Shown piece after piece: positions 33,180 through 44,597 of a DNA stretch of 64,000 nucleotides. Every line of letters begins with the position of its first letter. The stretch's first letter is position 1. The DNA comes from Actinomycetes bacterium (GTDB taxonomy: Bacteria; Actinomycetota; Acidimicrobiia; Acidimicrobiales; RAAP-2): contig JAJXZW010000012.1 of NCBI GenBank assembly GCA_021779855.1, positions 1 through 64,000 of the forward strand, written 5' to 3'. Position numbers and translations under genes: made by a program. Below the pieces are notes generated by a model that saw nothing but the letters and a program-made list of their open reading frames with translations, had not been told where the DNA came from and made no database searches.

Positions 33180-33578
33180 GTGCGCCCGGGCCCCGAGCGC
33201 CACCGGGCGCGCGAGCGGGCCCTCGAGATCCTCTACGAGGCGGCGATCAAGGGCCGTCGCGTACCCGAGGTCCTCGCGTCGCTCGCGGTGGCACCCGACC
33301 CCTACGCGGTGCGCCTCCTCGAGTCGGCCGAGGCCCACCGCGAGCGCGCGGAGGGCCTGATCGCCGCGTGCGCGATCGACTGGCCCCTCGAACGCATCGC
33401 CCTCGTGGACCGGCTGGTGATGACCCTCGCGGTGGGCGAGATGCTGCTCGATGACCCGCCGCCCCTCGCCGTTATCCTGGACGAGGCCGTGGAGCTGGCC
33501 AAGGTGTTCTCGACCGAGGGGTCGCCGTCGTTCGTGAACGGCGTGCTGGCCGAGGCCGCGCGGCGCCTCAGGGACTGA
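33180..33578 (+). CDS. nusB: Transcription antitermination factor NusB
   Basis: This 132-residue all-helical protein acts with NusE in rRNA antitermination. The start has the family RHRARERALEILYEA and the end has LDEAVELAKVFSTEGSPSFVNGVLAE. GTG 33180 lies directly after the efp stop. In other Actinobacteria pyrR or bldD comes next; here a 10-kb oxidase block intervenes. Confidence 0.95.
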   Translation: MRPGPERHRARERALEILYEAAIKGRRVPEVLASLAVAPDPYAVRLLESAEAHRERAEGLIAACAIDWPLERIALVDRLVMTLAVGEMLLDDPPPLAVILDEAVELAKVFSTEGSPSFVNGVLAEAARRLRD

Positions 33579-33594: not shown

Positions 33595-35331
33595 GTGCCG
33601 GGAATGGGTCAGAAGGGCGTCTCGCTCACCAACGCCCTCACCGTCGCGGCCTTCCACCACAGCGCCTACCAGGTCGCCCTCTACTGGATCATCGCCGTCG
33701 CCGTCGTGGCCCTCGCGGCGGCGGCCCTCACCGGCCGGCTCGGCTCGTTCAACCTGTCGGCGGCGGGGCTGGCCGAGCCGCGGGCGCGCACCGTGCTGCG
33801 GGTGGGCTTCGGCGTGCTCTGGCTCGTCGACGGACTCCTGCAGTTCCAGCCCGGGATGCCCCTCGGGCTCGCCAACGACGTCGTCCAGCCGGCGCTCGCG
33901 GGGACGCCCGGATTCTTCAAGCCCGTGGTGCGCCACGCGATCACCCTGTGGAACCTGCACCCCGTCGCCCTCGCCACGGGGGTCGCCTGGCTCCAGGTCG
34001 GCCTGGCCCTCGCCCTCCTCAGCTCGAACGGCCGGCTCGGCCGGCTGGCCGGGGCCGTGTCGGCGGGGTGGGCGCTGGGCGTCTTCGCGGTGGGCAACGG
34101 GCTGGGCGGGGTCTTCGCCCCGGGGGCCTCGATCCTCTTCGGCTGGCCCAGCGCCGCCTTCTTCTACCTGGTCGCGGGGGTGTGGCTGGCCCTCAGCCCG
34201 GACTACTTCGCCCGGCGGTTCTCCACGGTGACGACCCGACTGGTGGCCGTCGTGCTCGTCCTCGGGGCGCTCGTGCAGGCCCTGCCCTCGGCGGGCTTCT
34301 GGCGAGGCGGCGACGCCAACGCCCTCACCCGGATGTCGCGCTCGATGACCGCCATGGCCCAGCCCCACGCCCTCGCCTGGGTGGTGCGCCACGTCGGTGA
34401 CCTCGCCGGGACGATGGGCGGGGGCTTCAACGTGATCGTCCTGCTGTGGCTGCTCGGCACGGCCGCGGGCCTGTGGTGGGCGACGCGGCGCCCGGCCACC
34501 TGGCCCTACCGGGCGCTGGCGGTGGGCGCGGTCGTCGTCTGGGTGGCGGCCGAGGACCTGGCGGTGTTCGGAGGGGTGGGCACCGACATCAACTCGATGG
34601 TCCCGATGGCCTTCCTCGCCTGGTGCGCGCGCCCAGCCCTCGCGGCGCGCGCACCCTACCCCCGGCGCTGGCCGCGCGAGCTGCGCTCGAACTCGGGCTC
34701 GGTGGTGGCCGCCTTCGCCGCGGCCATGGTGCTCTTCTCCTCGGTGTCGATGGCGGTGGCGGCCGCCTCCCCGGCCGAGTCGACCCTCTTTCTCGCCGCG
34801 AACGGCTCGGTGGGCTCCGAGCACGTGCGCGAGACGCCCTTCACCCTCACCGACCAGCACGGGCAGCCCTACACCCTCGGCGAGCACGCGGGCCGCTACA
34901 CGATCCTCGCGTTCCTCGACCCGGTCTGCTGGACCGACTGCCCGATCATCGCGAACCAGCTCGCGAGGGTGCGCGCGGCCCTCGGCCCGACCGCTCCGGT
35001 CGACGTCGTGGCGGTGGCGGCCAACCCCGAGCACCAGACGCTCGCGAACGTGCGCCACTTCATCGCCATCCACCACCTGGGCTCGATGCCCGACTTCTAC
35101 TTCGTGACCGGGCCGGTCGCCAAGACCCGCAAGGTCTGGAACGCCTACGGCATCGGGGTCTCGAACGAGAAGGGCTTCGCGATGAGCATCCACGCGGACT
35201 ACCTCTTCGTGATCGACCCCCGGGGCTACGTGCGCTGGCTCGTCCCGGACGACCCCGGGACCGGGGGGGCCCAGACGACCTCGACGGTGACCGAGCTGCT
35301 CGGGCTGCTCGGCCAGATCGGGCTGCGCTAG
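33595..35331 (+). CDS. Polytopic membrane protein fused to a Sco1/SenC copper-chaperone domain
   Basis: This 578-residue protein has about ten membrane helices in residues 25-385, a domain I do not recognise (FGVLWLVDGLLQFQPGMP is its most distinctive segment). An extracytoplasmic thioredoxin-fold domain of the Sco1/SenC type occupies residues 400-578. The Sco copper site is complete: Cys445 and Cys449 (CWTDC) and His533 (SIHADYLFVIDP). Sco proteins deliver copper to the CuA centre of cytochrome oxidase. The gene leads into the oxidase cluster, 16 nt after nusB. The membrane part could handle copper import, which is inference. Confidence 0.82.
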   Translation: MPGMGQKGVSLTNALTVAAFHHSAYQVALYWIIAVAVVALAAAALTGRLGSFNLSAAGLAEPRARTVLRVGFGVLWLVDGLLQFQPGMPLGLANDVVQPALAGTPGFFKPVVRHAITLWNLHPVALATGVAWLQVGLALALLSSNGRLGRLAGAVSAGWALGVFAVGNGLGGVFAPGASILFGWPSAAFFYLVAGVWLALSPDYFARRFSTVTTRLVAVVLVLGALVQALPSAGFWRGGDANALTRMSRSMTAMAQPHALAWVVRHVGDLAGTMGGGFNVIVLLWLLGTAAGLWWATRRPATWPYRALAVGAVVVWVAAEDLAVFGGVGTDINSMVPMAFLAWCARPALAARAPYPRRWPRELRSNSGSVVAAFAAAMVLFSSVSMAVAAASPAESTLFLAANGSVGSEHVRETPFTLTDQHGQPYTLGEHAGRYTILAFLDPVCWTDCPIIANQLARVRAALGPTAPVDVVAVAANPEHQTLANVRHFIAIHHLGSMPDFYFVTGPVAKTRKVWNAYGIGVSNEKGFAMSIHADYLFVIDPRGYVRWLVPDDPGTGGAQTTSTVTELLGLLGQIGLR

Positions 35332-35633
35332 CCGGTCGGGGAGTCCTCGTCGCGGTGGACGCGGCGCAGGTACTCGTTGTAGGCCTCGAGGGCGGCGTCC
35401 TCGGCCGGGTCGGCCGGCGGCGGCCGAGGCGCGAGGCGCTCTTCTCTCAGCATCTTTCGGGTCATGTAGAGGGCGTAGAGGGAGAAGAGGGGCCACTCGA
35501 AGACGTAGGCCCACGACAGGTGATTGCCCGTGAGGGCCCGGTCCAGCTCGAAGCCGAAGGCGGTCCAGCACAGGGCCTCGGCCAGGACGAGGCCGATGTA
35601 TATCAGAAGAATGTTCTTATTTTCGCCGGACAA
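35328..35633 (-). CDS. Small membrane protein, paralogue of the one at 42639
   Basis: This 101-residue protein has two membrane helices (NILLIYIGLVLAEALCWTAF and [17 protein letters not shown]) and a charged cytoplasmic tail. The second helix contains [11 protein letters not shown], which recurs exactly in the protein at 42639, near the other end of the oxidase block. Function unknown; a role in oxidase assembly or as an accessory subunit is suggested by location. It starts with TTG, preceded by GAGGA. The stop shares CTAG with the Sco fusion gene. Confidence 0.72.
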   Translation of the reverse strand: MSGENKNILLIYIGLVLAEALCWTAFGFELDRALTGNHLSWAYVFEWPLFSLYALYMTRKMLREERLAPRPPPADPAEDAALEAYNEYLRRVHRDEDSPTG

Positions 35634-35641
35634 CGGTCCTC

Positions 35642-35647
35642 AATTTA
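35642..35647 (-). promoter_or_regulatory. -10 candidate (TAAATT) for the small membrane protein
   Basis: TAAATT on the minus strand, 8 nt before TTG 35633, inside an AT-rich stretch (about 35590-35670). Confidence 0.4.
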
Positions 35648-35661
35648 TTCGTCGTTCTGGC

Positions 35662-35667
35662 TACTGT
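35662..35667 (+). promoter_or_regulatory. Predicted -10 (TACTGT) for the oxidase operon
   Basis: TACTGT predicts a start near 35674 and a 34-nt leader with AAGGAG at 35696-35701. It would drive 35708 through ctaG-like 40256. Confidence 0.45.
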
Positions 35668-35707
35668 TCACCGGGAGCCGTAAGCACCGGTCGCTAAGGA
35701 GCTTGGT

Positions 35708-36391
35708 ATGACGATGAGTGGAAGATTGGGGGCCGTCCTAGGACTCTTCGTGATCGCCGTCGGGCTGATCATCTGGGTCTTGATGGGCCTCCTGACGCCG
35801 GGGACCCCGGAGGGCGTCGTCAACTACGTGGGCTCGTCGGCTCCGGGCCAGCCGGTCAACCTGACGCTCCAGACGGTGGGCACGATCGGTTTCGGCGACC
35901 ACCCGACGTGGGTGAGCTACCTGGCGAGGACCCCCCAGGGCGAGTGGGTCCACGACACCACCTGGCAGCTGCCGGCCGACACCCTCATCAACGTGACCAT
36001 CTACCAGTACGACTCGGGCGGCCCGCTGCGCAACCAGGAGTTCGGCCAGGTCACCGGCACCGTCGGCAACTACGAGACGGTGAACGGCAAGACGATCCGC
36101 GCCTTCAACTCCTACAGCGGCGCGGGGGTCGGCCACACGTTCACCGTCCCGGCCCTTGGGATCAACGTCCCGCTGATCGCCAACTCCGCCTCGACGCTCT
36201 GCGGCTTCGCGCCCTGCCATGTGTCATCGGCGCACCAGCTGATCCACTTCAGCTTCAAGACGCCCGCCAGGACCGGCGAGTACCACTGGCAGTGCTTCAT
36301 ACCCTGCGGACTGGGCTACCTGTACGGCAACGGAGGTCCGATGTCGACCCAGGGCTTCATGGGCGGCTTCTTGGACGTGGTTTCGCAGTAA
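35708..36391 (+). CDS. COX2-like membrane-anchored cupredoxin with an incomplete CuA site
   Basis: This 227-residue protein has one membrane helix (residues 8-29) and an extracytoplasmic cupredoxin-like domain. Against oxidase subunit II it keeps the first CuA histidine (His143 in GHTFTVPALGI) and both cysteines (Cys196, Cys200 in CFIPCG), but the second histidine is Tyr204, the glutamate between the cysteines is Ile198, and the methionine is absent at its usual place. An extra pair Cys165/Cys170 precedes it. It cannot hold a standard CuA and may bind one copper or act as an assembly or accessory subunit. AAGGAG lies 6 nt before ATG 35708. Confidence 0.75.
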   Translation: MTMSGRLGAVLGLFVIAVGLIIWVLMGLLTPGTPEGVVNYVGSSAPGQPVNLTLQTVGTIGFGDHPTWVSYLARTPQGEWVHDTTWQLPADTLINVTIYQYDSGGPLRNQEFGQVTGTVGNYETVNGKTIRAFNSYSGAGVGHTFTVPALGINVPLIANSASTLCGFAPCHVSSAHQLIHFSFKTPARTGEYHWQCFIPCGLGYLYGNGGPMSTQGFMGGFLDVVSQ

Positions 36392-36424
36392 CCGGATTCG
36401 AGCGACGACGACGGAGATATTGCA

Positions 36425-37396
36425 ATGAACAACGAACCTCGCCACATGCGCCGGATCGTGACCGCCTGGGTCATCGCGTCGGTGATCGGTGACCTGCTCT
36501 GGTGGTTCCTGGTCGGTCCGCACATCCCGCCGGGGAACATGACCGAGTCGGCCCACTGGAACCAGTTCGACTTCAACGTCCTCGCCGTCACGGCCATCCC
36601 GGTCGTCTTCATGGTGTGGCTCTGGATGGGCTACGCGCTGGTCAACTGGCGCGACAAGCCCGGCGTGCCCGACCCGGTCGGCGGGGAAGCCGCGAAGGCC
36701 CCCTACCGGGTCCAGGCCGCCTGGATCTCGATCACCTCGATCGTGGTGATCGCGGCCGCCATCTACGGCACCGTCGCCCTGATCGGCGACCACGGCTCCG
36801 GCGGCGGCGAGGGCCCGAACCCCGTCTGGGCCCCCGAGGGCGCGGTCGCCGCCAACACCGCGGCCATCCAGGGCAAGGCGACCTGGTCGCCCGCAGGCCA
36901 CCAGCCGCTCGTCGTCCAGGTGATCGCCCAGCAGTGGAAGTTCACCTACCGCTACCCGGCCTTCGGAGGGATGGAGACGAGCCGGCTCATCCTGCCGGTG
37001 GGCACCGACGTGGTCTTCGACGTGACCTCGCTCGACGTCATCCACGACTTCTGGGCGTACCAGTTGAGCGTGAAGGCCGACGCGAACCCCGGGGTCAACA
37101 ACGTGGCCTTCGCCGACACCCATCAGACCGGTCAGTTCATGGTCCGCTGCGACGAGCTGTGCGGCATCTGGCACGGGGCGATGTACAACAGCGGGCGGAT
37201 CCTCTCGAAGACGGCCTTCATGGCCTGGGCGACCAAGACCGAGGCCCAGAACGCCTCGAACACGAAGTACCTCCCGCCCTTCGCGTGGACCTACACCCCG
37301 GACGCCAACGGCGCCAGCGGCGGGCTCTACCCCGACGGCAACGTGACGCCCTACAGCCCGTACGACACCTACGGCGCCAAGCAGCCGGCCTCGTGA
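36425..37396 (+). CDS. ctaC: Cytochrome c oxidase subunit II
   Basis: This 323-residue subunit accepts electrons from cytochrome c at its CuA centre. All ligands are present: His207 (VIHDFW), Cys242, Glu244, Cys246, His250 and Met253 (CDELCGIWHGAM). Three hydrophobic segments precede the cupredoxin domain (about 8-30, 52-72, 100-120), one more than usual. There is no lipobox cysteine and no fused haem c domain. It follows the broken-CuA homologue and precedes ctaD. Confidence 0.94.
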   Translation: MNNEPRHMRRIVTAWVIASVIGDLLWWFLVGPHIPPGNMTESAHWNQFDFNVLAVTAIPVVFMVWLWMGYALVNWRDKPGVPDPVGGEAAKAPYRVQAAWISITSIVVIAAAIYGTVALIGDHGSGGGEGPNPVWAPEGAVAANTAAIQGKATWSPAGHQPLVVQVIAQQWKFTYRYPAFGGMETSRLILPVGTDVVFDVTSLDVIHDFWAYQLSVKADANPGVNNVAFADTHQTGQFMVRCDELCGIWHGAMYNSGRILSKTAFMAWATKTEAQNASNTKYLPPFAWTYTPDANGASGGLYPDGNVTPYSPYDTYGAKQPAS

Positions 37397-37451
37397 GCGT
37401 CGGACCAGTTCGAGTAATGCGTGATCACTGTCAAGAAATGGAGATGGTGCG

Positions 37452-39422
37452 ATGACAATTAGCGCCGAGCGACCCACCGAGACGGCGGCCGGCACTGCGG
37501 CGCCCGCGGGACCCCGAAGGGTCTCGTGGACCAACCGTCCCGGCTGGATGAGCCAGCACCTGGGCACGGCGTTGGTGCTGGCGTTCCTGGGCTACCTGCT
37601 GGGCCACTGGTGGGGCAACCACATCGCCGGTAACTACCACTACATCAACGGAGCGAGCGGCCAGAACAGCGTGGCCGACTTCCTGGCCCTGCTGCTCATG
37701 GTGGTCGGCTGGCTCGTCGGCATCGGTGCGCTGAACTACCCGATCGCCAAGCTCTTCGGCCGCGAGGCGGTCGAGGAGGCGCCGGCCAAGGGGATGAGCC
37801 GGTACTTCCGCTACACCCTCGACCACAAGGTCGTGGGCATGCAGTACGTGGTGGGCACCCTGCTCTTCTTGTTCACCGGGGGCCTGCTCGCCATGGCCAT
37901 CCGGACCGAGTTGCTCAACCCGACGGTCCACATCTTCAACCCGGGGACGTACATCGAGATCGTGTCCGAGCACGGCACGATCATGATGATGATGGCGACC
38001 TCGGTCGTCGTCGGGCCGCTGGGCAACTACCTGGTGCCCCTGATGATCGGCTCTCGGCGGATGGCCTTCCCGCGCATCGAGGCGTTCAGCTTCTGGATCT
38101 TCTCGGCCGGCTACATGGTCATCTTCTCGGCCCTCTTCTACGGCGGGTTCCCGACCGGGTGGACGGGCTACGCCCCGCTGCAGAACCAGGCCGGTCCGGG
38201 AATGATCTCGTACCTGTTCGGCTTCGCCGTCATCGGCATGGGCATGATCGCGGCGGGCTTCAACATCGCGGTCACGATCATCAACTACCGCGCGCCGGGG
38301 ATGACCTGGAGCCGGGTGCCGATGTTCGTGTGGTCGATCCTCGCGACCGCGTCGCTGCTCACCCTGGCCACGCCGGTCCTGTTCTCGGCCGGGCTCTTCG
38401 GCATCTTGGACCACGTGGTGCTGACCAGCCTGTACGTGAACGAGCACGGTGGGAGCTCGTACCTGTGGGAGAACCTCTTCTGGTTCTTCGGCCACCCGGA
38501 GGTGTACATCATGGCCCTGCCGGGCTTCGGCATCGTGGCCGAGATCGTGCCGGTCTTCACCCGAAAGCCGTTGTTCGCCTACAAGGTCGCGGCGGCCGGC
38601 ATGATGGGCGTGGCGTTGCTGTCGTTCTTCGTGTGGCAACACCACCTCTTCCAGAGCGGCATCAACCCCGACATGCGGCCCCTGTTCATGCTCACGACCG
38701 AGCTGATCTCGATCCCCACGGGCTTCATCTACCTGGTGGGCATGGGTTCGCTCTACAAGTCGAAGATGCGCCTCGAGATCCCGATGCTCTTCTCGCTCGC
38801 GCTCTACTTCAACTTCCTGATCGGTGGGATCACCGGCGTGTTCCTCTCGGACGTGCCGGTGAACGTGACCGTGCACGGCAGCTTCTTCGTGCTGTCGCAC
38901 TTCCACTACACGATCATGGGTGGGCTGATCTTCGCCTTCATGGCCGGCCTCTACTACTGGCTGCCCAAGATGACGGGCTACATGATGAACAAGAAGTTGG
39001 GCCTGTGGCACTTCTGGACCATGTTCATCTTCTTCAACATGACCTTCTTCCCGATGTTCATCATCGGCCTGCTCGGTCAGCCCCGTCGCGTCTTCGAGTA
39101 CGCCCACGGCCTCCAGGGCCTGAACGACTTCTCGTCGATCAGCGCGTTCTGCCTCGGGGCCTCGTTCCTGCTGTTCTTCTGGAACCTGATGTACTCGATG
39201 ATCATCAACCCGAAGAAGGCTCCGGCGAACCCGTGGGACTCGCTGGGCCTCGAGTGGCAGACGGCGAACCCGGTTCCGCTCTACAACTTCGAGCGGATCC
39301 CGGTCATCGTGACCGAGCCCTACCGCTACAGCGAGCCGGGCGCCCCGGCGTACGCGGACTTCGGCGGGGGGGGATCGGACGGCGGTTCGTCGGGTGCGGT
39401 CGGCAGTTCGGTCGAAGAGTGA
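37452..39422 (+). CDS. ctaD: Cytochrome c oxidase subunit I
   Basis: This 656-residue haem-copper oxidase core has about 14 membrane helices. Ligands: His174 for low-spin haem (SEHGTIMMM), His348 with Tyr352 as the cross-linked CuB pair in GHPEVY, His397 and His398 for CuB (WQHHLF), and His483/His485 (SHFHYT) for the two haems. The Glu350 of GHPEV fits a type A1 oxidase with a D-channel. Extra N-terminal helices (LGTALVLAFLGYLLGHWW) and a Gly/Ser-rich tail are additions. GGAG precedes ATG 37452. Confidence 0.96.
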   Translation: MTISAERPTETAAGTAAPAGPRRVSWTNRPGWMSQHLGTALVLAFLGYLLGHWWGNHIAGNYHYINGASGQNSVADFLALLLMVVGWLVGIGALNYPIAKLFGREAVEEAPAKGMSRYFRYTLDHKVVGMQYVVGTLLFLFTGGLLAMAIRTELLNPTVHIFNPGTYIEIVSEHGTIMMMMATSVVVGPLGNYLVPLMIGSRRMAFPRIEAFSFWIFSAGYMVIFSALFYGGFPTGWTGYAPLQNQAGPGMISYLFGFAVIGMGMIAAGFNIAVTIINYRAPGMTWSRVPMFVWSILATASLLTLATPVLFSAGLFGILDHVVLTSLYVNEHGGSSYLWENLFWFFGHPEVYIMALPGFGIVAEIVPVFTRKPLFAYKVAAAGMMGVALLSFFVWQHHLFQSGINPDMRPLFMLTTELISIPTGFIYLVGMGSLYKSKMRLEIPMLFSLALYFNFLIGGITGVFLSDVPVNVTVHGSFFVLSHFHYTIMGGLIFAFMAGLYYWLPKMTGYMMNKKLGLWHFWTMFIFFNMTFFPMFIIGLLGQPRRVFEYAHGLQGLNDFSSISAFCLGASFLLFFWNLMYSMIINPKKAPANPWDSLGLEWQTANPVPLYNFERIPVIVTEPYRYSEPGAPAYADFGGGGSDGGSSGAVGSSVEE

Positions 39423-39437
39423 GTGGAGAGATCCAAG

Positions 39438-40094
39438 ATGACTGACACCTACAAGGACTCGACGGCGCCAAACGCCACGCCCGAGGAGCGGGAGTTCGAG
39501 TTCCGCTCGCACATCGGGTCTATCTGGACCGGGGGACGGCTCGCCATCGGCGTGGCCACGTTCATGTACGCGTCGCTGGCCTTCGCGTACTTCTACCTCC
39601 GTTCCAGCAACAATTCCCACCTGTGGCGGATCCCGGGGCAGCTGGCGCCCCTCTACTACGGCTGGACGATCCTGATCTGCATGCTGGTCATGGCGGGTCT
39701 GGGGATGTACGGGCACAGCCGGCTGCGCAAGGGGTTCACCAACGACTTCCAGGTGGCCGGCTGGACGGGGGTGGCGGCGGGACTCATCGCCCTCTTCTTC
39801 CAGATCTGGGAGCTCGTGGTCCTGCCCTTCTACCCGGGCTCGAGCGGTTACGCGTCGACGTTCGTGGCCTTCGTGGTCATGAACATCATGACGATCGTCT
39901 TCGCGACGTACTGGCTGGAGACCGCGGTGGCCCGCTCCCTGCGCCTGCGCAAGGAGCTCGGCGGGACCAGGCCCGAGCTCTCGTCGGCCCACACGGCGCG
40001 CTCCTTCCGGGCCAACGTGTCCTCGATGTCGTACTACCTGGGATACGTCGGTATCATCAGCATCGGGTTCTTCCTGATGTTCTACGTGCAGTAG
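39438..40094 (+). CDS. ctaE: Cytochrome c oxidase subunit III
   Basis: This 218-residue membrane protein has five or six helices and the subunit III pattern: HIGSIWTGGRLAIGVATFMYASLAFAYFYLR near the start, a conserved WELVVLPF and a final helix. Subunit III stabilises the oxidase and its proton uptake. It is shorter than the usual 260-280 residues, so the first helices may be missing. ATG 39438 follows GGAGAG; ctaD ends 15 nt upstream. Confidence 0.88.
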   Translation: MTDTYKDSTAPNATPEEREFEFRSHIGSIWTGGRLAIGVATFMYASLAFAYFYLRSSNNSHLWRIPGQLAPLYYGWTILICMLVMAGLGMYGHSRLRKGFTNDFQVAGWTGVAAGLIALFFQIWELVVLPFYPGSSGYASTFVAFVVMNIMTIVFATYWLETAVARSLRLRKELGGTRPELSSAHTARSFRANVSSMSYYLGYVGIISIGFFLMFYVQ

Positions 40095-40129
40095 CCGTCG
40101 GGTCGGATCTGAGTTAAGGAGAGTTGGCT

Positions 40130-40240
40130 GTGGACATCTACATCGGCCCCCAGGTCCAGACGATGGTCTTCCTGCTGGGCGTGCTCGGGGCTGTGATCAT
40201 TTGGGGAGCCTTCCAGCACCGGAATCACAGCGAGAAGTAG
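40130..40240 (+). CDS. 36-residue single-helix membrane peptide, candidate oxidase small subunit
   Basis: A short frame with AAGGAG at 40116-40121 and GTG 40130 encodes MDIYIGPQVQ, a membrane helix (TMVFLLGVLGAVIIWGAF, about residues 11-28) and a basic tail QHRNHSEK. It sits between ctaE and the CtaG-like gene in the same direction. Its size and place fit an oxidase minor subunit or a CcoQ/subunit-IV-like stabiliser; no sequence family is recognised. Confidence 0.7.
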   Translation: MDIYIGPQVQTMVFLLGVLGAVIIWGAFQHRNHSEK

Positions 40241-40255
40241 GCGGTCGCGAGCCGC

Positions 40256-41032
40256 ATGTCGCATCGGGTGCGGCGGCTCCGGAACGCGGCGCTGGTCGCG
40301 GGCGTGGTTGCGTGGGTGGTGTTCCTCGCGCCCCCTCTCGACTCGTGGGCGGGGCGCTACGAGTTCATGAACGCGCTGCAGTTCGGCGTGTTCGCGTTCT
40401 GGGTCCCGGCGGCGCTGGCCGTGGGCGCACCCTGGCGGTTGACCCGCGCGGGTCGCGCCCTGGCGGCGGGCGACACGAGGGTGACCTGGCTGACGCGCTG
40501 GACGGCGCGGCGCGAGGCGTTCTCGCGCGAGGCGCGCGCGGTGGTCGTGACCGTCGTGTTCATCCTGCTCGAGGTGTTCTGGCGCCTCGCGCCGGTGGTC
40601 GATGACGTCGCGGCGCACGGGTGGGGCCGGGCACTCGAGTCGGTGACCCTGGTGGGCGCGGGCGTGGCCCTCTTCGTGTCGATGGTGGAGTCGCCGCCGC
40701 TCACGCCCCTGCCCAAGCGCGTCCTGCGGATCTTCATGGCCGCGCCGGTGATGTGGACGATCTGGATCATCGGGTACATGGACGGCATGACCGGCGCCGG
40801 GTGGTACCGGGTGTTCCACCACGTGGCCGGGGCCGGGGTGTCCCTGGTCGCCGACAAGGAGATCGCCACCGGGGTGCTCTGGGCGACGTCGGCGGTGATC
40901 TTCATCCCGGTCGTCTTCTGGAACATGGTCCACTGGCTCCAGTCCGAGTCGACCCCGGACGAGGAGATGTACGACCTGGTGCGCGAGGAGCGCACCCGCG
41001 GCCTCTTCGGGCCGCGGGCGGAGCGCTTCTAG
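40256..41032 (+). CDS. CtaG-like membrane protein, divergent
   Basis: This 258-residue polytopic protein aligns by eye with the Caa3-type CtaG family: FMNALQFGVFAFWVPAALAVGAP corresponds to the H-rich HMxxH...[12 protein letters not shown] segment, and VADKEIATGVLW to the [11 protein letters not shown] segment of the copy at 43046. The histidines of the first motif are lost, so copper binding may be altered. It probably assists oxidase assembly. ATG 40256 has only a weak ribosome site. Confidence 0.72.
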   Translation: MSHRVRRLRNAALVAGVVAWVVFLAPPLDSWAGRYEFMNALQFGVFAFWVPAALAVGAPWRLTRAGRALAAGDTRVTWLTRWTARREAFSREARAVVVTVVFILLEVFWRLAPVVDDVAAHGWGRALESVTLVGAGVALFVSMVESPPLTPLPKRVLRIFMAAPVMWTIWIIGYMDGMTGAGWYRVFHHVAGAGVSLVADKEIATGVLWATSAVIFIPVVFWNMVHWLQSESTPDEEMYDLVREERTRGLFGPRAERF

Positions 41033-41038
41033 CCCTGT

Positions 41039-41713
41039 CTAGCCGCCCGGCGGCGGGCTCACCACCGGCAGGCGCGGCGTGACGAGCGGGGACCCCAGGG
41101 TCCGGCTCGCCTGGGAGATATCGCCGAGGACCTGGTCGCGCTCGCGGTTGAGCTCGGACGCCTGGTAGGCGAGGTTGGCCTTCAGGGACGCGTTGGTCGG
41201 GTCGTCGAGCAACTGGCGGATGTCCTGAATGGCCTTGAGGGCGGTGCCGCTGATCCAGTGGTCGAGGGCCGTGTGGGCGGCGTCGACGTGCTTGCCCGCG
41301 GCGGTCAGGGTGACCTGGATGTTGTTCGTGAGGTCGTAGACGGGTTGCCCGGCGAACGAGCACGGGACCTCGTCCTCGGCGATGTAGGTCTTGGTGGTCG
41401 CGAGGTTGGCGGGCGACAGTGCGCCCCTGACGAACCGGGCGTAGAGCGAGAAGCTCTCCGAGACGCCGAAGGCGCACTCGCGGGCGTCGCTGCGCATCTG
41501 GGTGAGGACGGCGTTCTGGGCGGCGATGTCCTGGGACACGGTGATCGGGTGGGGCAGGTCGGTCACCACCGAGATCGCGATGATGACCGCGGCGATCGAC
41601 GACACGAGGAACCAGGGCCGCCGGAACCAGGGCACGCGCCGGTTCGTCAGCGACGAGATGGCCATCGTCGAGGGGTCGTACTCCTCCTCGGAGAGGTCCA
41701 GGTGGTCGGTCAC
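41039..41713 (-). CDS. Membrane-anchored extracytoplasmic protein of unknown function
   Basis: This 224-residue protein has an acidic cytoplasmic N-terminus, one membrane helix (about residues 34-52) and a helical outer domain with two cysteines (ARECAF, VPCSFAG), then a Pro-rich end. No known domain is seen. Its start overlaps the stop of the Sco gene (GTGA), so the two are co-translated and a shared role in oxidase biogenesis is plausible. Confidence 0.7.
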   Translation of the reverse strand: MTDHLDLSEEEYDPSTMAISSLTNRRVPWFRRPWFLVSSIAAVIIAISVVTDLPHPITVSQDIAAQNAVLTQMRSDARECAFGVSESFSLYARFVRGALSPANLATTKTYIAEDEVPCSFAGQPVYDLTNNIQVTLTAAGKHVDAAHTALDHWISGTALKAIQDIRQLLDDPTNASLKANLAYQASELNRERDQVLGDISQASRTLGSPLVTPRLPVVSPPPGG

Positions 41714-42528
41714 GGGACGAGACTACCGGCGGTCCGGGCGATGCCCTCGGCCCAGCGCGCCACCTGGGCGGCGCCCAGGGTGTAGGTGCCCGAGTGGCTC
41801 TCGTTCGCGAACGGGGTGGCCAGGTCGGCGAGCCCGCCGTGCGGGCCGATGAAGTACATGATCTCGTTGTGGGCCATCTGGTTCGAGCGGCGGCCCACGG
41901 TGATGGTCACGCCGTAGTCCGACCAGACCGGGTCGATCTCGGACAGGCTCCCGGTGAGGAAGTACACGTTCCCCAGGTGGTCGAGCCCGGTCCGGGAGAG
42001 GGCCGGGGGATCGGCGGTCCCCTTGAGGTCGCGCGGGTCGGTGTTGACCACGACGAAGTCCACCCCGTGGGCCCGGGACCCCAGGAGCGACTCCGCCCGG
42101 CGGATCTCCTCGCCGACGACCGGGCAGATGTCGGTGCAGGTGCCGTTGAAGAACGTGAGGACGACGACGTGGCCCCGGGCGCCTCGGAGGGTCCAGGGAC
42201 GCCCGTGCTGGTCGGTCAGGCTGAAGCCCGGGGCCACCTCCGAGCTGATGGGCTTGAGTCCCATGAGGGCGTCGAGACTGGAGGCGAGCGGTCGGGTCGA
42301 CCCGGCGGGGGCCGTCGTCGTGGCGTGGGGCGCCGGGGTCGAGCCGACGCGACCGAAGTAGTAGTCGGCCACGAGCCCGATGACCCCGAGGAGAACCAGG
42401 AACGTGACGAAGCGCCCGACGTAGCGGCTCGACGCCTTCGGCGTCCCCTCGGCCAGGGCGCGCCGGCGCTGCTCCTCGGAGAGCCCGCGGGGTGCGTCGG
42501 CGCGTTGCTCTTCGGACAGGTCGGAGAT
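41710..42528 (-). CDS. Sco1/SenC-type copper chaperone, possible AUC start
   Basis: The protein has an N-terminal charged segment, one membrane helix (FVTFLVLLGVIGLVADYYF) and a Sco domain with FFNGTCTDICPVVGEE (C-x3-C) and the histidine in MAHNEIMYFIGP. It should insert copper into the oxidase. The only standard start codon in frame is GTG 42372, which lies inside the membrane helix. The frame upstream is open to a stop at 42568-42570 and has a GGGAGG site 5 nt before an ATC codon at 42528. A start at ATC gives a 272-residue protein with an intact anchor. An alternative is CTG 42519 or a sequencing error. Confidence 0.8.
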   Translation of the reverse strand: MSDLSEEQRADAPRGLSEEQRRRALAEGTPKASSRYVGRFVTFLVLLGVIGLVADYYFGRVGSTPAPHATTTAPAGSTRPLASSLDALMGLKPISSEVAPGFSLTDQHGRPWTLRGARGHVVVLTFFNGTCTDICPVVGEEIRRAESLLGSRAHGVDFVVVNTDPRDLKGTADPPALSRTGLDHLGNVYFLTGSLSEIDPVWSDYGVTITVGRRSNQMAHNEIMYFIGPHGGLADLATPFANESHSGTYTLGAAQVARWAEGIARTAGSLVP

Positions 42529-42569
42529 GAGGGCCTCCCGGGTGGTGCAGTCGCCGCGATGGTCGTCCT

Positions 42570-42575
42570 ACGCTA
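42570..42575 (-). promoter_or_regulatory. Predicted -10 (TAGCGT) for the Sco operon
   Basis: TAGCGT on the minus strand predicts a start near 42563 and a leader of about 35 nt that includes GGGAGG before the proposed ATC start. Confidence 0.45.
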
Positions 42576-42626
42576 CCACCGGTCGGATTCCTCGATCCGG
42601 GCGTTGAGCGCGCGGGGAGGGCGAAG

Positions 42627-42632
42627 TAGCCT
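42627..42632 (+). promoter_or_regulatory. Leaderless-type -10 (TAGCCT)
   Basis: TAGCCT, a 6-nt spacer, then GTG 42639. Confidence 0.55.
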
Positions 42633-42638
42633 CGCGGC

Positions 42639-43049
42639 GTGAGCGATTCGCCTCGTGAGACGTCACCCGACGCGCCCCCCGAGCGGCTCCGCGGGGCCGC
42701 GGCGCTAAGACTCCACCTGACGCTGGCCGGCGGTCTCGCGCTCTGCACGGTGGCGTTCTGGTTCGAGCTGCATCGGGCCGAGGGCGGCAACAGCCTCAGC
42801 TGGGCGTACGTCTTCGAGTGGCCGCTCCTCGGGATCTTCGCCGTGTACATGTGGTGGAAGTTCCTGCACCCGGGCCGCGACGTCGTGCGCGAGAGGGCCC
42901 GGGCCCGGCGCCGCCCGCCCGCCCCGGTCGTCGAGGCGCAGTACCAGGGCATGCTCGAGGCCTGGCAGGCCCACCAGCGCGAGCTCACCGAGCGCCAGGC
43001 GGTCGAGGACGCCCAGAGGTCGTCCCGCCCGCCCTGGACCCCGTCGTGA
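42639..43049 (+). CDS. Small membrane protein, paralogue of the one at 35328
   Basis: This 136-residue protein has two membrane helices ([20 protein letters not shown] and [21 protein letters not shown]) with [11 protein letters not shown] between [10 protein letters not shown] and the second helix. The C-terminal 60 residues are charged and cytoplasmic. It overlaps the following CtaG gene by 4 nt (GTGA), so the two are translated together, which ties this family to oxidase assembly. Confidence 0.75.
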
Positions 43050-43987
43050 GGGCCCTGACCCAGGGCTGGTCCTGGGACCCCACGGTCTACGCGCTCGCGC
43101 TGACGGTCGCGGCCCACGAGCTCGGGCTGCGCCGCCTCGCCCGACGCTCCTCGGCGAAGAGCCGTCGCGCCAGGCGGCGTCGCGCCGGGGCCTTCTACGC
43201 CGGGCTCGCCCTCTTGCTCCTCACGATCGACTCGCCCCTCGACTACTGGTCGGGCAGCTACTTCTACGTCCACATGATCGAGCACATCGTCCTGATGTTC
43301 TTCGTGCCGTTCCTCGTGGTGTGGGGCGCGCCGTGGAACCCGCTGCTCTTCGCCCTCCCGGTGCGCTGGCGGCGGGCCACGGGGCGGTTCTTCTACCTGA
43401 GCCCCCGGGCCCGGCCGTACCGGGCGGTCGGTCGCCTGGTGCGCAACCCGTGGTTCGCGCTCGTCTTGATGAACGTGGTGATGCTCGCCTGGCACGTCCC
43501 GCGGCTCTTCGACCTCGCCGAGACCAACACGGCCGTCCACATCGTGCTCATGCACGGTAGTTACGTCGTGGCGGGGGTCCTCTTCTGGCTCCAGATCGTG
43601 CCCTCGTTCCCGATGACGCCGCGCAAGGGCTACGTCTGGCAGGGGAGCGCGATCCTCTTCACGAACCTCGTGATGACCATGCTCGCCATCTCGATGAGCA
43701 TCCTGACCTCGACGAGCTGGTACAGCGTCTACGACCACGTGCCCGGCGTGACGCTCTCGCCCTTCGCCGACCAGCAGATCGGCGCGGCGATCCTCTGGAT
43801 CTGCGGCGACTTCTGGGCGCTGCCGGGGATCAGCTACGTCATCCGCAAGGCCATCCGCACCGAGGGCTCGGCCGGCGCGGTGCTCGACCGGTTGACCGGG
43901 CGCGCGTCCCACTTCGGCTCCGAGGTGCCCCACTGGCCCGCCTCGAGCGTGGAGGCCGCGATCAACGCGAAGTACGAGTTGGAGTAG
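43046..43987 (+). CDS. ctaG: CtaG-family oxidase assembly protein
   Basis: This 313-residue polytopic protein matches the Caa3-type CtaG family: [49 protein letters not shown] and [18 protein letters not shown]. About seven helices. The conserved histidines (HMIEH) are present, unlike the copy at 40256. Family members are needed for an active caa3-type oxidase, probably in copper insertion. Confidence 0.88.
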
Positions 43988-44057: not shown

Positions 44058-44597
44058 GTGACCGAGACCGAGGACCCGCGCACCCCGAGCGGGGCGGCCC
44101 GACCCCTCCTGTCGTCGTCCGACGTCACCCGGGCGTTGCGCCGGATGGCCCACGAGATCCTCGAGCGCAACCACGAGGCGCCCGTGTGCGTCGTCGGCCT
44201 CCGACGCGGCGGGGTGGCCCTGGCCGAGCGCCTCGCCCACGACCTGCGGGAGGTGGGTGCGGCCGACGTCGAGCTCGGCCAGCTCGACGTGGCCTTCTTC
44301 CGCGACGACCTGGCGGCGCGGCCGGTCACCGGCGCCGGCGCCACGGCGCTGCCGGCGCTCGAGGACCGGGTGGTCGTGCTGGTCGACGACGTCCTCTACA
44401 CCGGACGCACCGTGCGCGCGGCGCTGAACGCCCTCGTCGAGTGGGGCCGGCCCCGGGCCGTGCAGCTCGCGGTCCTGGTCGACCGCGGCCACCGGGAGCT
44501 GCCCATCCGCGCCGACTTCGTGGGCAAGAACGTCCCCACCGCCCGCGAGGAGTCGGTGCGCGCCACCCTCGACGGCGTCTGGCTGGAACGGCCGTGA
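44058..44597 (+). CDS. pyrR: Pyrimidine operon regulator PyrR
   Basis: This 179-residue protein has the phosphoribosyltransferase fold with the PRPP loop VVVLVDDVLYTGRT (about residues 105-117). PyrR binds pyr mRNA when UMP is high and often has weak uracil phosphoribosyltransferase activity. GTG 44058 follows GGAGG directly after the RNA hairpin, so PyrR probably represses its own operon at translation, as in mycobacteria. It overlaps pyrB (GTGA). Confidence 0.95.
   Translation: MTETEDPRTPSGAARPLLSSSDVTRALRRMAHEILERNHEAPVCVVGLRRGGVALAERLAHDLREVGAADVELGQLDVAFFRDDLAARPVTGAGATALPALEDRVVVLVDDVLYTGRTVRAALNALVEWGRPRAVQLAVLVDRGHRELPIRADFVGKNVPTAREESVRATLDGVWLERP

Follow-up and report, generated by a model that had tools for sequence, protein, structure and literature searches.

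A cupredoxin-bearing gene module between nusB and pyrR in an acidimicrobial genome: a predicted alternative A-family oxidase with changed proton-channel residues

A block of 12 genes, here named A to L, occupies positions 33595-43987 of the DNA analysed, a window of 64,000 nucleotides from an Actinomycetes bacterium of the order Acidimicrobiales (GenBank GCA_021779855.1, contig JAJXZW010000012.1). The contig (G000:C36; G and L numbers are our handles for genomes and loci) is part of a 2.06-Mb assembly of 51 contigs. With moderate confidence, we read the block as a self-contained module for a dedicated alternative A-family heme-copper oxidase, encoded beside a canonical COX1 that lies elsewhere in the genome. 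An initial annotation of the window had placed the block under the heading of an assembly system. That heading does not suit the parts, as C looks more like a redox cupredoxin, G resembles a structural subunit and the change in the COX1 channels is unrelated to assembly. Most likely, the module specifies an alternative oxidase complex that comes with a cupredoxin and copper-insertion factors of its own, and not a new assembly system. To judge from the sequences, the core would be a known kind of oxidase, and the unusual elements would be the cupredoxin, the altered channels and the helper proteins.

Heme-copper oxidases are classified by their proton channels. COX1 (protein E) was scored against the A1-type and A-type residues given in Table 2 of PMC3084760, the portion of that paper used here, across 86 rows of the window's type of COX1 (hereafter long-type). 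All 86 rows keep H94, H325, H326, H411, H413, E278, Y280, T351 and S134, with N113 and N199 kept in 84 and 85, respectively; the A1-type ligand set (heme and CuB ligands, Glu278, Tyr280 and Thr351) is present in long-type COX1. The diagnostic Asp and Asn of the D-channel and Lys and Ser of the K-channel are replaced in nearly all rows. D-channel D124 is replaced by R in 79 rows, K in five and G or Q in one each; N131 is E in 85 rows and Q in one; K-channel K354 is I in 76 rows, L in eight and V in one, leaving a single K. Position S291 has a residue other than Ser or Thr in 84/86. The sole row with Lys at K354 is L077, which may be a real exception or a fault of alignment or assembly. An excerpt of the 2011 survey in PMC3084760 gives the expected channel residues as missing in only four of 1216 sequences.

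The canonical paralogues provide the comparison within the same genomes. Asp124, Asn131 and Lys354 are kept, and Ser or Thr is found at S291, in all 14 scorable canonical rows (one further row, L154, was empty). A second, short type of COX1, discussed below, has D124 and N131 in 14/14 and Lys354 in 0/14. Nine residues before the K354 position, a Glu is found in 85/86 long-type and 14/14 short-type rows, and is absent from the canonical rows. The long-type COX1 of G435 and G440, two genomes outside the class, shows the same pattern (KRMAFPRIE or RRMAFPRIE; PTGFV or PTGFT). Additionally, E has an N-terminal extension of 100-140 residues (105-140 residues ahead of the DHK motif), in which two hydrophobic stretches were judged by eye. 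With the channel residues replaced, proton uptake in long-type COX1 may be rerouted or blocked. The window genome has its second COX1 on contig 21, scoring better than E; two COX1 were found in 12 of 13 further genomes tested and three in the remaining one. A COX1 tree resolves long (100/99), short (100/100) and canonical (100/99) clades, with a warning from the tool of long branches meeting between the short and canonical sets.

Assignment of the remaining oxidase genes follows from motifs and profiles. The CuA motif (allowing E or Q) was found in 79/79 relatives of D, with complete conservation (1.00) of the upstream H207. F aligns with the F of the short module (hhalign 98.8%); searching G000 with PF00510 (COX3) at E≤10 recovered one canonical copy and not F, and alignment of F with canonical CtaE was poor. 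Sco and CtaG proteins are ordinary copper assembly factors. CxxxCP occurs in 46 of 51 complete relatives of A and 61 of 62 of J, which identifies both as Sco proteins; the membrane part of A gave no sequence match in Pfam or the PDB. Caa3_CtaG scores H at 64.9 and L at 154.6 bits, both above the cut-off of 27.7, with L below the cut-off in NCBIfam. Among the block proteins, Pfam returned no match for B, C, I or K and none above cut-off for F, and NCBIfam returned none for A, B, C, G, I or K. The part list of the initial annotation held for the ctaC/D/E-type subunits, the two Sco and two CtaG proteins and the 36-residue peptide; what was taken for a broken CuA in C is another set of residues, itself conserved. 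The small or unknown proteins that it listed are also present, with the correction that two of them, B and K, appear to be a pair of paralogues. B and K share a 10-residue motif, and the motif of B together with C22, E29 and R32 is invariant in 47 sequences. Peptide G was recovered by tblastn in 46 of 64 loci with F and H near each other; an ending like W-x-FFQR, read by eye, adds about 15.

Protein I is the component tied most exactly to the oxidase. In a set of 61 genomes sampled from the family, which are not independent of each other, a profile of I identified 17 carriers; a long-type COX1 (at least 69% identity) was present in the same 17 and in 0/44 of the others. The carriers span ten genera, and presence is patchy within genera, for which reason we regard the link between I and COX1 as strong. 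I is predicted to comprise one transmembrane helix and a four-helix bundle (predicted local distance difference test, pLDDT, of 86), and C80, C118, D52 and W153 are invariant. The fold resembles chemoreceptor ligand domains (Z up to 10.3). We rejected assigning a function to I from its fold, as such matches lie within chance for helical bundles. A weak relative of I (23% identity) is found beside nusB in G014 (L032:14406-15074), apart from C-D-E-F.

We sought the block more widely by a pattern scan of a genome collection, in which 292 of 332 stretches were confirmed; the best 80 are loci L048-L127. These overlap the G genomes in part (e.g. L067/G099, L072/G067, L090/G141) and are not independent samples. 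Their titles are mostly metagenome-assembled genomes of Actinomycetes, Acidimicrobiales or Acidimicrobiaceae from acid mine, bog and palsa; a few are titled otherwise (Acidobacteria, Saccharibacteria), and one is an isolate, Acidiferrimicrobium sp. IK. Most of the 80 loci have the order C-D-E-F-G-H with I and J reversed; departures include L114, L119, L122, L124 and L126. Counting for each gene only loci whose contig extends far enough, presence downstream of C is D 75/75, E 69/69, F 66/68, H 62/65, I 55/63, J 57/63, K 45/62, L 37/59 and pyrR 33/59; upstream it is nusB 42/64, A 42/64 and B 43/71. A K-A-L-C-D-E-F-G-H-I-J set also occurs away from nusB, with other neighbours (e.g. L076, L084, L089). 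The module genes are largely co-inherited. The claims of the initial annotation that the block is a real entity between nusB and pyrR and that nearly all of it goes with one oxidase are borne out: 12 genes were identified, their order recurs in related loci, they stay together away from nusB, and I co-occurs in 17/17 against 0/44. The same 17/17 shows that the unknown protein I is not missing from other genomes with this oxidase.

CuA requires C-x-E-x-C-x3-H-x2-M, and type-1 copper requires a second His; protein C has neither. We aligned 16 oxidase-linked members of the C family, and a second set composed of four of these and ten others. In these 14 diverse members (down to 23% identity) the invariant residues are D102, H143, T144, P169, C196, P199, C200, M212, M218 and G220, leaving aside the start Met, which is also invariant. 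H143 is the only invariant His, and there is no His after C196 in the protein of the window. The copper loop of AcoP, C-x6-H-x4-M in the excerpt of PMC4059628, is likewise not found in C. Scanning eight further stretches for C-x2-P-C-x(3-14)-M-x5-M-x-G gave 17 hits, which carry C-x2-P-C and M-x5-M by construction, and all 17 have H-T-[FWI] upstream. C has a predicted transmembrane helix at residues 3-29, and its gene adjoins that of COX2 in all 75 loci that reach so far. A profile search of the PDB placed copper proteins first (best E 0.00048), the corresponding single-sequence search returning one meaningless match only, and Cupredoxin_1 matched 5 of the 14 members. C is better read as a predicted cupredoxin family of its own, with one His, C-x2-P-C and M-x5-M and without the second His. 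We ruled out a decayed CuA, as even distant relatives share the alternative set without variation.

The family extends beyond the oxidase. A search with protein C hit 19/198 genomes of the class; in the phylum it is present in 9/296 genomes, two of them outside the class, and both of those carry C with an oxidase (L178-L180). One of these, G435, has the short and long modules together (L178, L179), each with its own C-type cupredoxin. In three loci, two to four C-family members are encoded with 4Fe-4S and NrfD-like proteins (L047:4583-11544, L038:7736-13269, L182:4804-11190), and no oxidase gene was noticed near them. The best NCBIfam model for the 4Fe-4S protein is DsrO, below cut-off, and its partner is NrfD/DsrP-like. 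L047 and L182 also hold a relative of the membrane domain of A, without a Pfam SCO match in L047. This Fe-S/NrfD operon is possibly a quinone-cupredoxin oxidoreductase. A further C-family cupredoxin is encoded in the window genome itself (L044:9701-10357; G000:C16:74203-74841), with no oxidase gene noticed nearby.

Several observations weigh against reading the block as a channel-altered oxidase served by a redox cupredoxin. The channel changes do not prove that pumping is lost, and S193 shows no conservation in the canonical rows either. The 80 loci were picked partly by a WQC..PC pattern, so that C196, P199 and C200 are there partly by construction. An AlphaFold2 model of C (60 sequences) has a pLDDT of 75, falling to about 30 in residues 201-227, which hold both Met. 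Its nearest folds are the cupredoxin domains of nitrite reductase (Z 6.9-7.1) and rusticyanin (5.9-6.7), followed by nitrosocyanin (5.8-6.0) and oxidase subunit II (up to 5.8), values below 8 that may reflect merely a common arrangement; Foldseek gave no match to the model at E≤0.001. C196 and C200 could form a disulfide. Lastly, G215 has an Fe-S/NrfD operon with C members and one COX1 match only, and the operon need not feed a long-type oxidase.

A possible, though rather unlikely, alternative is that C is a copper(I) chaperone whose soft His/Cys/Cys/Met/Met site passes copper from Sco to the CuA of D, which would make the block an assembly system after all. Consistent with this, the block holds two Sco and two CtaG proteins, C has a C-x3-C as in Sco proteins and lies directly ahead of the CuA gene, and it is without the second His of electron-transfer cupredoxins. 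However, C-family members occur in the Fe-S/NrfD operons of L038, L047 and L182, where no copper oxidase gene was noticed, the relative of A in L047 is without a Pfam SCO match, and rusticyanin is among the nearest folds of C. Given the presence of the family in Fe-S/NrfD operons, we favour electron transfer over copper delivery.

We also consider it improbable that E merely belongs to the ordinary deep-branching (2TM) A-family oxidases known from acidophiles, accompanied by lineage-specific accessories, its channel changes being neutral drift. In the excerpted PMC8239418, two additional N-terminal helices are described for the COX1 of iron oxidizers, and repeated loss of the K-channel for family A oxidases of archaea, so that neither feature is new in kind; E shows an extension and no K-channel Lys. 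Drift, however, sits poorly with near-fixed replacements (R or K at the D-channel Asp in 84/86, E at the Asn in 85/86) that are also present in G435 and G440, from outside the class, and with a novel Glu in 85/86 at nine residues ahead of the Lys.

In 50 of the 61 family genomes, efp and pyrR share a contig. They lie less than 1 kb apart in 24 and 1.2-3.3 kb apart in 13; in ten the distance is 7.6-10.9 kb with a COX1 inside, and in three, all of genus g110 (G245, locus L168; G204; G231), it is 5.4-8.7 kb without COX1. These distances uphold, within the family, the description of the block as inserted. COX1 was found at the site in 10/10 listed genomes of genera g1, g3 and g109 and in 0/40 others, and the nusB-pyrR arrangement is therefore common to a clade. 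We ruled out a one-off insertion, given the gene order recurring in related loci and the clade-wide occupancy of the site.

The site can hold either the long module, as in the window, or a short one made up of A, L', B or K, C', D', E' and F', whose COX1 is about 40% identical to the long type. The short module lies between nusB and pyrR in L034, L035, L036, L037, L039 and L042, some of them in the same genus as the long. Most long and short loci keep A and B (L028 is without both, L030 without A). By these comparisons, oxidases seem to have been exchanged at the site; within genus g1, a tree of canonical COX1 does not resolve carriers of the long module from carriers of the short. In genus g2 the short module follows carB (L040, L160); G014 (L032) and G134 (L031), from another family, have a C-D-E-F set close to efp and nusB. 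That the block is a laterally moving oxidase island at a recombination-prone site, its genes passengers and not one unit, seems very improbable. In favour of such an island, one genus has the gap filled by both long and short oxidases, of separate clades; a long-type E (82% identity) lies ahead of pyrR in G249, a member of another genus; different genes flank the module elsewhere; and the guanine-cytosine content of the window is lowest in the oxidase genes (0.64-0.67). Against it, there is no tRNA in the window, all sizeable block genes are accounted for (no profile search was aimed at integrases), and the exact co-occurrence of I and COX1 argues for a functional set.

Table 1. Genes of the oxidase block and its flanks, in positions of the window.
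Gene	Position	Strand	Assignment
nusB	33180-33578		flanking gene
A	33595..35331	+	membrane domain (~residues 1-380) fused to SCO1/SenC with CxxxCP; PF02630 1.1e-11
B	35328..35633	-	small membrane protein, 101 residues; motif shared with K; probable paralogue of K
C	35708..36391	+	predicted membrane-anchored cupredoxin: H143, C196-x2-P-C200, M212-x5-M218; without second His ligand
D	36425..37396	+	COX2, intact CuA (C-x-E-x-C-x3-H-x2-M); PF00116 3.1e-15
E	37452..39422	+	COX1, 656 residues, N-terminal extension, changed D- and K-channel residues; PF00115 8.3e-125
F	39423..40094	+	COX3-like by position and profile likeness to F of the short module
G	40130..40240	+	36-residue single-helix peptide; GTG start, AGGAG upstream
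H	40256..41032	+	CtaG-like copper assembly factor; PF09678 (Caa3_CtaG) 9.3e-18
I	41039..41713	-	one transmembrane helix and predicted four-helix bundle; invariant C80, C118; companion of long-type oxidase
J	41710..42372	-	Sco with CxxxCP; PF02630 4e-14; 4-base overlap with I
K	42639..43049	+	small membrane protein, 136 residues; motif shared with B; probable paralogue of B
L	43043..43987	+	CtaG-like copper assembly factor; PF09678 (Caa3_CtaG) 3.8e-45
pyrR	44058-44597		flanking gene

By their sequences, D, E and F are COX2 with CuA, COX1 and a COX3-like subunit, and A and J (Sco) together with H and L (CtaG) are, by homology, copper-insertion factors. As a dedicated oxidase module, the block would work as follows. 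C, anchored in the membrane at its outer face, would pass electrons to the CuA of D in the manner of AcoP or rusticyanin, using its His-Cys-Cys-Met-Met set. G, and possibly B and K, may be small structural subunits, and I, whose gene overlaps that of Sco J, may be an obligate companion that matures or holds copper proteins. Proton uptake by COX1 would bypass the textbook D and K channels, and its pumping may be reduced or absent; this would suit an acidophile, whose proton motive force comes already from a steep pH gradient. A bolder and doubtful extension is a cupredoxin-wired branch, in which the new His-Cys-Cys-Met-Met family would serve both an Fe-S/NrfD complex (at the quinone end, or running backwards with electrons from Fe(II)) and a channel-less oxidase leaning on outside acid for proton motive force, with I as an obligate maturation protein.

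The long-type oxidases form a clade, found in actinobacteria of acid mine and bog, with both channels changed at diagnostic positions. Their host genomes also encode a canonical paralogue, an internal control that allows the role of the channels to be tested in a natural enzyme. Protein I is a clear example of an uncharacterised protein linked to a single oxidase. The excerpted PMC5143472 records cytochrome spectra of the a type in Acidimicrobium and Ferrimicrobium respiring iron, and proposes a unique pathway. Acidiferrimicrobium australe is listed as an iron oxidizer in PMC8790237. The C family supplies concrete candidate electron carriers for Gram-positive acidophilic iron oxidizers. We rejected the a-type spectra of iron-grown Acidimicrobium as proof of this oxidase in iron oxidation; two COX1 are present in G014, a presumed Acidimicrobium genome. 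Gene-neighbourhood comparison, proposed by the initial annotation as a check, showed the block to be common at this site within the clade; as for a prior description, a search of the open-licence literature found none of the module or of a C-type site, and the excerpts of PMC10654088 and PMC8357290 do not mention the module.

Among the closest known systems is the 2TM COX1 of acidophilic iron oxidizers in the excerpted PMC8239418, which shares with E an N-terminal extension, K-channel variants, an acidophilic host and CtaG in the cluster; E differs in also having the D-channel Asp and Asn replaced, and could belong to one of the subclades of that COX1. Channel residues of an actinobacterial aa3 oxidase, that of the bcc-aa3 supercomplex, are given in an excerpt of PMC8795186. 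Canonical actinobacterial aa3 oxidases share COX1 homology with E and supply the second COX1 of the same genomes; unlike E, these copies keep the D-channel Asp and Asn and the K-channel Lys. To our knowledge, no C, G or I accompanies the canonical enzyme. The copper-insertion factors resemble Sco and caa3-type CtaG proteins, with SCO and CxxxCP in A and J and Caa3_CtaG in H and L; in contrast to the usual factors, A carries a fused membrane domain that has no Pfam match, and each factor is present twice. AcoP, which is bound to its oxidase, is, as C is predicted to be, a transmembrane-anchored cupredoxin encoded with a cytochrome c oxidase in an acidophile, but its site (H85, C159-x6-H166-x4-M171) differs from that of C, with its C-x2-P-C and M-x5-M and no second His. 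Rusticyanin likewise comes from an acidophile and is a cupredoxin among the nearest folds to the model of C (Z 5.9-6.7); its ligands, according to the excerpted PMC10654088, are His85/Cys138/His143/Met148, whereas C dispenses with the second His and has a second Cys and a transmembrane anchor.

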